Shown here: in pieces, positions 41,414-46,543 of the stretch | Layout: each line of letters begins with the position of its first letter | Numbering within the stretch: the stretch's first letter is position 1 | From: an uncultured Lachnoclostridium sp. | Lineage (GTDB): Bacteria > Bacillota > Clostridia > Lachnospirales > Lachnospiraceae | Assembly (NCBI GenBank): GCA_947369165.1 | Contig: CANBKJ010000003.1 | Coordinates: 1 to 64,000, forward strand | Length of the DNA: 64,000 nucleotides | Direction: 5' to 3' | Program-made: the position numbers and the translations under genes | The notes under the pieces: generated by a model | The model's input: the letters and a program-made list of their open reading frames with translations, nothing else | Databases searched by the model: none | Told to the model about the DNA's origin: nothing

Positions 41414-44400
41414 TCATTTTAGCAGGGAGAGTACAGACTGGGTATTACGATTTGTCTGGCTCAGAATACTCACTCCCGCCTGCTGTAAAAGTTTTGATTT
41501 TGAATATTGTACCATTTCCGATGCCATATCGGTATCCCGGTCTATGGATTCTGAATTCTGCGTATTTTCAGCGGCAATATCGTCAACCTTGACCGCATAC
41601 CCGAGGCGGTTCTCCATTGCCCCATATCTGCTCCGCACAGAACTCAGATAATTCAATGCCTCATCGATCCTGTCCAGCGCTTTTTCGGCATATTTATGTT
41701 TGCTGATGGTAAGGGAATTAACACCCAGACTCATAGTACTCATACTATATCTTTTCAGTTCTATTCCTTGTCTGGCATTTGCGCCGATCTGAAGCCATTC
41801 GTCAACTGCCTGATCATAGCGTCCTCTGGTCTGATAAAACAATGCTGTTTTCGCCGGTCCCTGAATGTTCTCAATGGTATGCACCCCTAATTTGCTGTAA
41901 GCAAATTTCAGCATATTGCCCGACAGCGAGACTTTCAGACAGGAATCATCTGCTGCATCGGTAATCACCTTATTCAAGGCATCAACAAGCTCTTCGGCAG
42001 TATCGTAGCTTCCTTCTGGAATCTTATATGTATACGTCTTCCCATCCACATCAATGGAAAATTCATTTTCCCCATCTTTCACCTCCACACCGCCGGAAAT
42101 GTCCTTGGTCCCTGTCACATAGGCAGGAATGGGGTCTCCATCTGTCTTATAAAAGATACTGAACAATGCCTTTCCACTCAGGCCATCGATGGCGTAATCC
42201 CCCGGCGTCAGCTCCAGCTGCTTATTCAGATAGAAAAACAGTGCATTTTTGTCATCTGCCCCCTCTGCTCCACTATCATACACACCGACTCCGGCCAGAA
42301 TCATATTATCTGGAAGCCCATTTGCCTTCAATTGTTCGGATAATTTCTCCTGAATTTGTTTTACGAGAGAATCGGAATTATAAGTTCCCGGATCCAGAAC
42401 CATGTTCAGTGTCGTTACTTTACCGTTGACGGTAAGATCTACGTTCAGCTCGTCATTGTCTCCCTTTTGAATCGTAGTATTTTTATTTCTGATGTCCTTA
42501 CGTCCCACGATATATACGTCATCCACCACCAGCTTACCTTCTATATACGCTGCCTTATCATCTTCTTTGCGAAGGGCTGTTCCCATCATGACATTTTCAT
42601 AAAATCCACCATTAATACCATTGATCTCGTATTTCCCATATTTTTTTGACTCGAGGATAATCTGGTCACCAACTTCCACTTTCAGTCCCTCTCCCTTATG
42701 AACCGGATCATTTTCCAGACTGGCATCCAGTTTTTCCTGGAGCATCTTCTGCAGTTCAGCACGGGAAAATGTTCCTTTGTCCAGGTTGATCTCTATATCC
42801 TTTGTACTGCCATAGTGATATCTGTAGGAAAAACGCAGCGTCTTATTCGCATCGGTAATCGTAACAGAGCCCGGCATAACCGTGGGCCTTTTGGTTGTGA
42901 GATTACATTTTTTGGTAGTGTATTTCCTTGTAGTATAATAGGGATCCGAGCGCTCCGGATCATCTCCCTCAGCCTGTAGAACAGCAATTTTATTATATGG
43001 TATAGCGGCAAATTCGGAAGTGGAATTTAAGCCGATACTAATCGTCCCATCCGGGTTTTTCGTCAGACTGGCCTTCACTGTCGGTGTGGTACCATGGATC
43101 GGACCCGATTTTGCACTGGCGCTGATACTCTGACCGCTTCCCCTTGTGGTCGTAGCAAACTTGATTCGGCCTCCGGATGTCGAAACGGAAAAACCAAAGT
43201 CGGCAGGTGTTTTAGCGGTTCCTGTGTCGTTCTGTTTCCAAATTGCCTTATTCAATTCCGCCTGAAGCTGGTCAGCCGTAAAAGTCTTTTCATTGGAGGT
43301 ATCTGTGTTGGTCAGTGTTGCCGTATAAGTATTTCCTCCCATAGTTACTGTAAACTTAGCCGTTCCCGGTGTGGTAGCGCTGGCAGCCTTTGGTATCGTA
43401 ACTGACGACTGGTACATCGTCGCCGTGGCCGGTGATTTGAATATGATACTGCCCGCCGTACCACTGTTGTCTATATCCAGACTGACGCTCCCCGTCCCCG
43501 GCGTATCTCTCTCAAATCGCAGCCCACTTCCATGCGTGCTGACCGTAACCCCTTTGGCAGATAACTTATCATTCAGTTCCTTCTGAATATCGCCCAGACT
43601 GCTATAGGTTTTAGTTGTATCCAGCGAGACGGTCTCCGCCTTTCCATCTATCCGGATCGTAAACTGATTGTTCGAAGAATTAAGGGTAAAGGGATAGGTA
43701 TCGGAATAAATGGAAGAAGTAGTGGTATACCCTTTTGTTTTATTTGTATTGACACTGGCAAGAAAGGATGAGTCACACCCTGTTGTTGTCACCGTTTTCC
43801 CCTCTCCCACAGCAACGGTGGTAAACCTTAAATGACCACTGTTTACGGAAACTTTTACCTGATTTGCCTCCGATGTAACCTCTTTCAGCCTGTCCTCTAT
43901 CTCTTTCGCCAGCCCACTGGCCGTATAACCGGAACCTGTGCTGTTTTTTAGTGTTACTGTATATTTCTTTCCATTGATATTGATGGAAAACTGATTGTTT
44001 GAATTATCGATTTTCGTATAGGAACCCAGAGTTCCACCCAGCTGATGCCACCCCGATGTACCATCCTTGACCTGAGTGGAACCGTCAACTTTTCCGCCTG
44101 TTCCTGCCGCTCCTGAATTGGTGCAGGGACTCTCTTTCCCACTCTCTGTTGTAGCGCTGTTGGTCTTATAGACCGTCTTTCCGCTGTTGGTGGAAGAAGA
44201 ATAATTATTATATGAAGTCACCGGTTTTCCCTTTAGCGCGCTTTCATTCAGAAGCTCTATCACTTTTTCCGGGGTATAGGTCCCCGGCGCTATCGTCACC
44301 GTACGATACTCGCCCCCGATATTCACGTTCAGCTTATTGTTCAGAGACGTAAAGGTAATGTTGCCGGAAGTGTCCGGCTTGATCGGCAGCAGGGTAATGC

Positions 44401-46339
44401 TTGTACCTCTCGGATATGAAACCGTTTCTCCTACAAACAAAACATCGTATCCGCTGGTAACCCCTCCCGATACGTTGATCTTTGTCACCGTGTCATTGCC
44501 CGATTTTGTTGTCAGTTCGATCCTGTTACTACTCCTGACTGCCTGAATCTTCCCTGCATAATTTGTCTGGTCGCTGATGCGGTCGTTGATCTCCTTTATA
44601 ATATTATCCAGTGAAGAATATGTCTTTTCCGTCAATGTGATCAACTGCTTTTTAGGAGGTTCCCCCTCTTCTGTCACTTCCAGATAAAAGGATTTATTAG
44701 AACCATCGATCGTCAGCGGAAAATCAACGGTACTGTCAAATATCTTCCCTCCCATAAGATACGGAGCACTGTTCGACGTATACCATTCCCCGTCAACTAC
44801 AGTCGAAGCCTTACCAGGATCCGTATATCTGCGCTGGACAAACAACGTATCGTATGCGCTGCTGCCCGGCACATCAAACTCAATACTGCTTTCCTTTCCG
44901 ATCGTGTTTGTTGTCAGTGTCAAACCCGAAAACCGATAATTTTTGTTGCCGTTTGGCGTTGTCACCCCGGTGACCGTATGCTGGGTTACCTTGATGCCCA
45001 GGTTTTTTGCATCCAGTTTATTCTGGAGCTGTGTGACCATCTCCGTGATGTTGTAGCTTCCGGCATCCAACTGGATCGTCTCGTATGCGCCTCCGTCCAC
45101 CCGCAGCCGCAGAGTGTTATTTGTACTGTCAATGTCAAACCTGCTAAAATTCACATCCGAGGCATTCAAAACGTTGCCACCAGTAAATACCGCTGGCACT
45201 TCTTTTGCCGCCCCGTATTTCGTATTATCATAAAACACCGAGTCAAAATGTTTGTCATCGATGGCAAACATATTTCCTTTCAGTCCGGTGATAAGTCCTG
45301 TATCACCACCGATCTGAATCGATGCATCTCCATATTCACTTGCCTTGACTCCATAATCAATTAATGTTTTGCCATCTGGAAACCGATATTCATTCAGATA
45401 CTTTATCATGTCGTTCCGGCTGTAACCATCCTCGGCAACATCTATGTCGATCTCCTTCATCGTACCGTCAAAATATTCGATACGAAAATGCAGCTCATCG
45501 TTTTCGCCGTCCTTCACAACCAGCGGGTCGCCAGGAAAAAACACCGTAGTCCCGATGAGTGCCCCTGATTTATTGCCGCCATAACAGTCATAAAACAGAT
45601 AGGAAAGCCCACCTGAAACATCCTTGACTTCTTTTCCATTTTGAAGTACCATGTTGCACTTGTGATCGTCACTATATTCCACATATAGTCCGTCCGCCTC
45701 ATCTCCCAGCGCTGTCACCACATCATCCATCTCATCCATAAGTTCCTGGGTGGTATATGTTCCCTCAGGAATCGTAAGTGTTTTTTCCTTCTCTACTTCT
45801 GCCCCATCTGGTCCCACTGCAATATATTTCACAGTGAGAGAAGAATTACTGCTATCGATGGTATGGATCTGATCCTGGCTCCATACCCGGTTCCCCTCGA
45901 GCAGAGAATAATTATCCGTATAGTGCTCAAATACAGGTTTTTTATTAAATTCTGTCTGGTCGTTCACCCGGTCAATCTCACCCTGCAGCTGGTCAAATTC
46001 CATCTGCAGCGCCGCCCGGTCAGCTGGTTCGTACACCCCGTCATTCAGTGCCTGGACTGTGAGCTCCCGCATCCGGTGAAGCATAGCCCCAATCTGGCTC
46101 ATCGCTCCATCCCCGGTCTGTACAAAGCTAATCCCGTCCTGTGCATTTTGCGCTGCACGAGCAAGTCCTCGTATCTGCGCCCGTTTTTTCTCAGAAATAG
46201 CCATCGCTGCTGCGTCGTCTGCCGCCCGGTTGACCCTGTAACCAGAAGAAAGCCTTTCTGCTGCCTTTTTTAACTTATCATTCGTAACGCCAAGCTGTGT
46301 CATCGTATTAAGAGCGGCCATATTGTGCTGAATAATCAT
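41414..46339 (-). CDS. Giant flagellin (1641 aa) with expanded modular central region
   Basis: N-terminus MIIQHNMAALNTMTQLGVTNDKLKKAAERLSSGYRVNRAADDAAAMAISEKKRAQIRGL (D0/D1) and C-terminus YGAMENRLGYAVKVDDIAAENTQNSESIDRDTDMASEMVQYSKSKLLQQAGVSILSQTNRNTQSVLSLLK (D1/D0). One uninterrupted frame; RBS AAGGAG at 46348-46353. Confidence 0.95.
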   Translation of the reverse strand: MIIQHNMAALNTMTQLGVTNDKLKKAAERLSSGYRVNRAADDAAAMAISEKKRAQIRGLARAAQNAQDGISFVQTGDGAMSQIGAMLHRMRELTVQALNDGVYEPADRAALQMEFDQLQGEIDRVNDQTEFNKKPVFEHYTDNYSLLEGNRVWSQDQIHTIDSSNSSLTVKYIAVGPDGAEVEKEKTLTIPEGTYTTQELMDEMDDVVTALGDEADGLYVEYSDDHKCNMVLQNGKEVKDVSGGLSYLFYDCYGGNKSGALIGTTVFFPGDPLVVKDGENDELHFRIEYFDGTMKEIDIDVAEDGYSRNDMIKYLNEYRFPDGKTLIDYGVKASEYGDASIQIGGDTGLITGLKGNMFAIDDKHFDSVFYDNTKYGAAKEVPAVFTGGNVLNASDVNFSRFDIDSTNNTLRLRVDGGAYETIQLDAGSYNITEMVTQLQNKLDAKNLGIKVTQHTVTGVTTPNGNKNYRFSGLTLTTNTIGKESSIEFDVPGSSAYDTLFVQRRYTDPGKASTVVDGEWYTSNSAPYLMGGKIFDSTVDFPLTIDGSNKSFYLEVTEEGEPPKKQLITLTEKTYSSLDNIIKEINDRISDQTNYAGKIQAVRSSNRIELTTKSGNDTVTKINVSGGVTSGYDVLFVGETVSYPRGTSITLLPIKPDTSGNITFTSLNNKLNVNIGGEYRTVTIAPGTYTPEKVIELLNESALKGKPVTSYNNYSSSTNSGKTVYKTNSATTESGKESPCTNSGAAGTGGKVDGSTQVKDGTSGWHQLGGTLGSYTKIDNSNNQFSININGKKYTVTLKNSTGSGYTASGLAKEIEDRLKEVTSEANQVKVSVNSGHLRFTTVAVGEGKTVTTTGCDSSFLASVNTNKTKGYTTTSSIYSDTYPFTLNSSNNQFTIRIDGKAETVSLDTTKTYSSLGDIQKELNDKLSAKGVTVSTHGSGLRFERDTPGTGSVSLDIDNSGTAGSIIFKSPATATMYQSSVTIPKAASATTPGTAKFTVTMGGNTYTATLTNTDTSNEKTFTADQLQAELNKAIWKQNDTGTAKTPADFGFSVSTSGGRIKFATTTRGSGQSISASAKSGPIHGTTPTVKASLTKNPDGTISIGLNSTSEFAAIPYNKIAVLQAEGDDPERSDPYYTTRKYTTKKCNLTTKRPTVMPGSVTITDANKTLRFSYRYHYGSTKDIEINLDKGTFSRAELQKMLQEKLDASLENDPVHKGEGLKVEVGDQIILESKKYGKYEINGINGGFYENVMMGTALRKEDDKAAYIEGKLVVDDVYIVGRKDIRNKNTTIQKGDNDELNVDLTVNGKVTTLNMVLDPGTYNSDSLVKQIQEKLSEQLKANGLPDNMILAGVGVYDSGAEGADDKNALFFYLNKQLELTPGDYAIDGLSGKALFSIFYKTDGDPIPAYVTGTKDISGGVEVKDGENEFSIDVDGKTYTYKIPEGSYDTAEELVDALNKVITDAADDSCLKVSLSGNMLKFAYSKLGVHTIENIQGPAKTALFYQTRGRYDQAVDEWLQIGANARQGIELKRYSMSTMSLGVNSLTISKHKYAEKALDRIDEALNYLSSVRSRYGAMENRLGYAVKVDDIAAENTQNSESIDRDTDMASEMVQYSKSKLLQQAGVSILSQTNRNTQSVLSLLK

Positions 46340-46375
46340 AACATACTCTCCTTAAAAAATATATTTTATTATTTG

Positions 46376-46401
46376 AAGAATCCGTTCCAAATCGGATCCT
46401 T
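46376..46401 (-). promoter_or_regulatory. Leader hairpin with GGA in the loop, candidate CsrA-type site
   Basis: Minus strand AAGGATCCG-ATTTGGAA-CGGATTCTT, 9-bp stem (one G:U in RNA), upstream of the flagellin RBS. Confidence 0.5.
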
Positions 46402-46462
46402 TCCAGCTGCCGCATCTGCCTTCATCGGCTTACGGCATATGTTTCCCACCGCATCTAGAATG

Positions 46463-46506
46463 TGTAAGGAAAAAAGTACCGTTTGATATCCATTATTTTC
46501 CTTACA
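46463..46506 (-). promoter_or_regulatory. 5'-terminal leader stem-loop of the flagellin mRNA
   Basis: Perfect 11-bp arms TGTAAGGAAAA/TTTTCCTTACA, 22-nt loop, starting just downstream of the predicted TSS. Confidence 0.6.
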
Positions 46507-46514
46507 TATTTTCT

Positions 46515-46543
46515 ATTATAGCATGACCATTGGTCAGAAACAA
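46515..46543 (-). promoter_or_regulatory. Sigma-A-like promoter for the giant flagellin gene, with an internal palindrome
   Basis: Minus strand TTGTTT-N17-TATAAT; spacer holds TGACCA-A-TGGTCA (46524-46536). Confidence 0.55.

Follow-up and report, generated by a model that had tools for sequence, protein, structure and literature searches.

A giant flagellin carrying eleven tandem copies of one domain in a gut Lachnospiraceae genome

The window, as we call the whole 64,000-nucleotide stretch of DNA that was analysed, comes from a draft assembly in 123 contigs that is 92.6% complete. At positions 41414..46339 of its minus strand, a single uninterrupted ORF with an ATG start and an AAGGAG ribosome-binding site 8 nt 5' of that start encodes a flagellin of 1641 aa (178 kDa), about three times the size of the usual flagellin subunit and beyond the >1000 aa that defines a giant flagellin (Thomson et al. 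2018). At the N-terminus, Pfam family PF00669 (Flagellin_N, D0/D1) matches residues 3-139 (45923..46333, minus strand) at 7.5e-40 and 136.6 bits against a cut-off of 26.6, and the same family scores 143 bits in the genome search. At the C-terminus, PF00700 (Flagellin_C) matches residues 1555-1640 at 2.7e-16 and 60.1 bits against a cut-off of 23, the corresponding region (residues 1555-1641) lying at 41417..41677 on the minus strand. The first 140 residues align with solved flagellins (best match 3.3e-39), and the C-terminal part that can be aligned with other flagellins begins at approximately residue 1513. These results bear out the preliminary description of this DNA, which had proposed an intact 4.9-kb flagellin ORF with terminal segments of about 137 and 125 aa, and its concern that the ends might fail to match the Flagellin_N and Flagellin_C profiles is removed by scores above both Pfam cut-offs. 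Comparison with NCBIfam places the protein nearer to flagellin Hag (2.3e-61) than to FlgL (1.1e-19), and a separate FlgL-like gene is also present in the same genome.

What lies between the two ends? The insertion of ~1,370 aa noted earlier is indeed present as a large insert, but its tandem-repeat nature had been missed. Profile self-comparison and a unit HMM resolve it into a single ~110-aa beta-alpha-beta domain repeated eleven times in tandem, the copies having diverged, with unit cores of ~70-90 aa at a spacing of ~110-170 aa. On the minus strand, these cores are found at 45632..45874 (unit 1, residues 156-236), 45323..45529 (unit 2, 271-339), 44876..45145 (unit 3, 399-488), 44468..44725 (unit 4, 539-624), 44132..44368 (unit 5, 658-736), 43778..44023 (unit 6, 773-854), 43469..43696 (unit 7, 882-957), 43109..43372 (unit 8, 990-1077), 42614..42874 (unit 9, 1156-1242), 42224..42484 (unit 10, 1286-1372) and 41849..42097 (unit 11, 1415-1497). 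When each unit is left out of the profile in turn it scores 21-47 bits, and for every unit none of 200 shuffles scores as high (unit 1, for example, reaches 27.2 bits against 7.2 for its best shuffle). The units share just 18-31% identity with the last one, so the array is old. A search of the genome with the unit profile, which was built from these same units, finds no occurrence outside the giant gene, and no unit scores with the unit HMM in other flagellins, flagellinolysins or FliD, apart from one marginal match of 7 bits. Searches of Pfam and of PDB sequences return no family match and no homolog for the insert.

The fold of the unit was predicted with AF2, run on the protein as two halves. 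The unit cores are modelled fairly confidently (mostly pLDDT 70-94) as beta-beta-alpha-beta-beta domains with linkers of low confidence between them, and a pTM of 0.26-0.28 leaves the relative placement of the units unfixed. For the D0/D1 ends the models are poor, probably as a result of shallow alignments. The best Foldseek matches are to FliD (6iwy) and to FliD D2/D3 in 5xlj, followed by Vibrio and Pseudomonas flagellins including their D2/D3 domains (8erm, 4nx9) and by phage tail and baseplate proteins; some of the flagellin matches may be due to the modelled ends and not to the units. Unit 11 also matches a phage family of unknown function, phrog_19400, at 3.6e-11. Because the best structural matches are the D2/D3 domains of FliD and flagellin, which belong to the same fold class in Foldseek, the repeat unit is probably a multiplied D2-like domain, as judged from these models. 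Flagellin and FliD carry one or two such domains, whereas the window protein has eleven of them in tandem.

The gene is shared by related genomes and is under selection. Full-length orthologs of 1625-1643 aa with 46-95% identity are found in eight other genomes of the genus (G036, G015, G022, G023, G037, G035, G011 and G014), a further copy is split over two contig ends (G021) and three more are broken in frame (G027, G028 and G032), such that 13 of 39 genus genomes carry the gene when the window genome and the split and broken copies are included. The names of the public matches point to gut Lachnospiraceae metagenome assemblies, and we take the label MGBC to denote a mouse catalogue and 'Lapin' to denote rabbit. 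Comparison of the closest species gives a dN/dS of 0.07-0.09 for the full-length gene, with similar values for the ends and the insert. Neither the assembly error nor the frameshift for which the preliminary description had allowed is therefore seen in the window. The view that the ORF is an assembly artefact or a decaying gene could appeal to the 123-contig draft and to frame breaks in four relatives; with nine full-length copies across separate assemblies at such low dN/dS it is refuted for the window copy, and we regard it as extremely improbable. The window gene is a genuine, selected giant flagellin with its insert in a surface-exposed position.

In two rabbit-gut species (G028 and G032) the reading frame is lost close to residue 373, at a G8 tract (L054 7465-7472; L052 4342-4349); no other run in the coding sequence reaches eight. 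The frame of ~1235 codons that follows contains no stop, against 53-61 stops in the other frames, and has a dN/dS of 0.285 between the two species. This pattern suggests either slipping at the tract, that is, phase variation, or a recent break shared by both species. A -1 ribosomal frameshift was considered and rejected, given that the frames require +1 or -2. Elsewhere, the G027 copy is disrupted by a short deletion near residue 180 (L029 around 5430) and the G407 copy is broken near residue 140 (L094 around 5950). Since the frame is broken in all four of these genomes, the giant gene is dispensable in some lineages or states. G032 and G031 also encode large flagellins (1019 and 992 aa) that are unrelated and lack the repeat unit (L038 5641-8700 and L039 4883-7861).

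Beyond the genus, the insert was detected in 12 of 397 sampled family genomes, spread over 11 genera and always within a long flagellin frame. These proteins measure 1254-1814 aa and contain 8-11 units whose order is largely kept: eleven units are found in proteins of 1620-1680 aa, ten in one protein of 1519 aa and eight in each of three proteins of ~1255 aa. Across genera, units 1-2 and 9-11 mostly retain their identity, and it is the middle units that the eight-unit forms lack. In a tree of the flagellin ends the giants cluster (2 changes against 7.3 in shuffles), with no resolution of the deep branches. Some flagellin occurs in 82 of 150 sampled family genomes and most of the listed frames measure 260-720 aa, from which it follows that giant length is rare in this family, extending to it the rarity originally claimed for flagellins of this size. 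Conservation across genera under selection suggests a working surface structure and not an error.

Giant flagellins, including one from a Firmicute, are already known (Thomson et al. 2018, PMC6248924). Those of Bermanella marisrubri (1020 aa) and Oleibacter marinus (1190 aa) resemble the window protein in having D0/D1 ends and a large insert that arose via internal domain duplication. They differ in that their inserts consist of two DE units (plus a DX insert) and in that each is the only flagellin of its cell, whereas the window giant has eleven units of no recognised sequence family and occurs alongside other flagellins in a gut Firmicute. The Fig. 1 legend of the same study lists a giant flagellin from Eubacterium plexicaudatum, a mouse-gut Firmicute; this protein, named there in a tree legend only, is probably the nearest published relative. 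In the literature searched, we found no description of the eleven-unit family, of its spread in gut Clostridia or of its link to flagellinolysin.

The window gene is an orphan that sits between rpmB (L28) and asp23/fakA-like genes, outside the flagellar operons. Upstream of it lies a putative sigma-A-type promoter (46515..46543, minus strand), inferred from conservation, in which a weak TTGTTT -35 element (just 3/6 bases matching) is separated by 17 nt from TGC-TATAAT, a perfect -10 with a TG extension. This promoter is conserved in the species of the window and those closest to it, and the automatic promoter scan omits it because its -35 is weak. Between the two elements a short palindrome, TGACC-AAT-GGTCA (46524..46536, minus strand), whose arms are kept in 4/5 relatives, is a possible operator. 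No sigma-28 box was found 5' of the giant gene in the window, and the gene apparently has its own, non-sigma-28 promoter. The leader that follows (46340..46514, minus strand, with the ribosome-binding site at 46348-46353) folds better than shuffles (z -4.36) and shows little covariation in five relatives. It corresponds to no riboswitch or other known RNA, as no Rfam family reaches its gathering score and the best permissive match, cow-rumen-4, is a weak resemblance at 24 bits against a cut-off of 48.5. A CsrA site was likewise discarded, given a GGA loop that is not retained in all relatives and negligible covariation.

The same genome, in which genes for flagellar export and assembly are present, encodes FlhA, CsrA, FlgM, FliW, FliD, FlgK, FlgL and FliS, together with a second flagellin of 472 aa in a cluster of FliK-like, flagellin and FliS genes. 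This cluster (L024 2927-7671) consists of a DUF6240/FliK-like gene, the 472-aa flagellin and FliS, and the flagellin has 10 cysteines, which are uncommon in flagellins. Congeners additionally have a ~270-aa flagellin beside the fliD cluster, placed after an epimerase gene and carrying a clear sigma-28 box (TAAG-15-CCGATAT). This flagellin was not found in the window's own assembly, whose contig C17 stops 232 bp past the same epimerase gene. An assembly break is the likely cause, because in G036 the flagellin after the epimerase gene is a near-identical tandem pair, and judging from the contig end and the congeners the window strain would also possess it. The orphan locus, the missing sigma-28 box, the 472-aa flagellin and the congeners' ~270-aa sigma-28 flagellin are the reasons why, on sequence grounds, a minor flagellin, the alternative that the preliminary description had offered, fits better than a very thick filament built mainly of the giant subunit, for which that description had proposed roles such as adhesion, rigidity or immune shielding.

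That second arrangement has a precedent in Bermanella marisrubri, where the 1020-aa flagellin is the sole component of ~30-nm filaments (PMC6248924), and the giant described here could similarly be the principal subunit of a thick alternative filament to which cells switch. By a rough geometric estimate, a pure filament of the 1641-aa subunit would be ~39 nm wide if packed as in Bermanella (30 nm for 1020 aa) and ~53 nm if packed as in Salmonella. The separate promoter would suit such switching; however, the other flagellins in genome and genus, the location outside the flagellar operons and the patchy presence in 13 of 39 genus genomes argue against it, and we consider a thick alternative filament unlikely. 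An orphan gene with its own promoter might instead encode an exported or surface-bound adhesin or immune modulator that does not assemble, in the manner of Campylobacter FlaC or the Sphingomonas cell-surface flagellin, and the cell-surface flagellin 3k8v is among both the sequence and the structural matches. However, neither D0/D1 end is truncated, and purifying selection acts on both as strongly as on the insert, which a non-polymerising protein would hardly need, making this role very unlikely.

A further alternative involves a neighbouring gene. In four genus genomes (G021, G023, G035 and G037) a flagellin of 683-719 aa with an HExxH motif lies directly upstream of the giant gene on the same strand, and in G313, from another genus, a flagellinolysin-like gene likewise adjoins the giant gene and is co-directional with it (L030 6608-8767; L031 7343-9400; L032 6260-8329; L033 3633-5684; L091 9689-11407). 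Flagellinolysin (NF033876) carries a functional insert, an HExxH peptidase domain, in its variable region and is co-polymerised as a less abundant component; in Clostridium haemolyticum the protease flagellin accounts for as much as ~10% of the filament (Eckhard et al. 2017, PMC5595980). The window giant itself is not such a protease: the HExxH motif is absent from its translation, and its resemblance to NF033876, scoring 54 bits where the cut-off is 205, is confined to the vicinity of the flagellin C-terminus, with the best stretch at 1516-1571. Could the two proteins nevertheless form a two-part decoration, in which the arm of the giant spaces, shields or binds substrate for the protease? 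In favour are the adjacency in five genomes, the matches of the tested genus neighbours to NF033876 (2e-58 to 2e-51, with HExxH) and the giant/protease pair at the same rpmB/asp23 locus in G023, the sister of the window clade. On the other side, those neighbours score just under the 205-bit NCBIfam cut-off, and 9 of the 13 giant-bearing genus genomes, including that of the window, lack the protease, which occurs in 6 of 39 genomes, two of them without the giant. This co-occurrence (both genes in 4 genomes, giant only in 9, protease only in 2, neither in 24) is weak as a statistic, and adjacency alone is notable. Neither the window genome nor any of its four closest relatives has a match to flagellinolysin, and the window's upstream gap contains no remnant of it, the alignment to G023 there covering just 145 bp on the rpmB side. 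Given the pair at the same locus in this sister, it is simplest to suppose that the window lineage lost the protease, with gain in G023 as the alternative. A partnership since dissolved in the window lineage is quite unlikely.

We consider it fairly probable that this gene encodes a functional giant flagellin whose eleven multiplied D2/FliD-like units make it, most likely, an accessory filament subunit with an outward arm. The accessory role is favoured because the cell has other flagellins and because the orphan gene has its own, apparently non-sigma-28, promoter. According to this model, the two termini that form the core of the filament came to enclose eleven units through multiplication of a single D2/FliD-like beta-alpha-beta domain; the protein would probably be exported unfolded via the ordinary flagellar type III machine, and its D0/D1 ends would probably enter the filament lattice while the eleven units stick outward as an arm. 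Under separate control, the subunit could be mixed into the filament, form patches or build an alternative filament, and what it contributes would be adhesion, spacing or stiffness, as surface properties of the arm, and not propulsion as such. More speculatively, the giant of these gut anaerobes may represent a separately regulated and, in some lineages, phase-variable arm coating on ordinary filaments that was originally paired with a protease flagellin, an extension that we find rather doubtful.

The flagellins of gut Clostridia are major microbiota antigens, and an insert with ~five times the bulk of the normal flagellin core would alter how the filament looks to antibodies, mucus and phages. 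The natural series of 8 to 11 outer domains offers a probe for the limit on flagellin size in export and assembly, a question raised by the first giant-flagellin study (PMC6248924). If the arm coating is real, the result would be a composite filament whose surface could be switched independently of motility.
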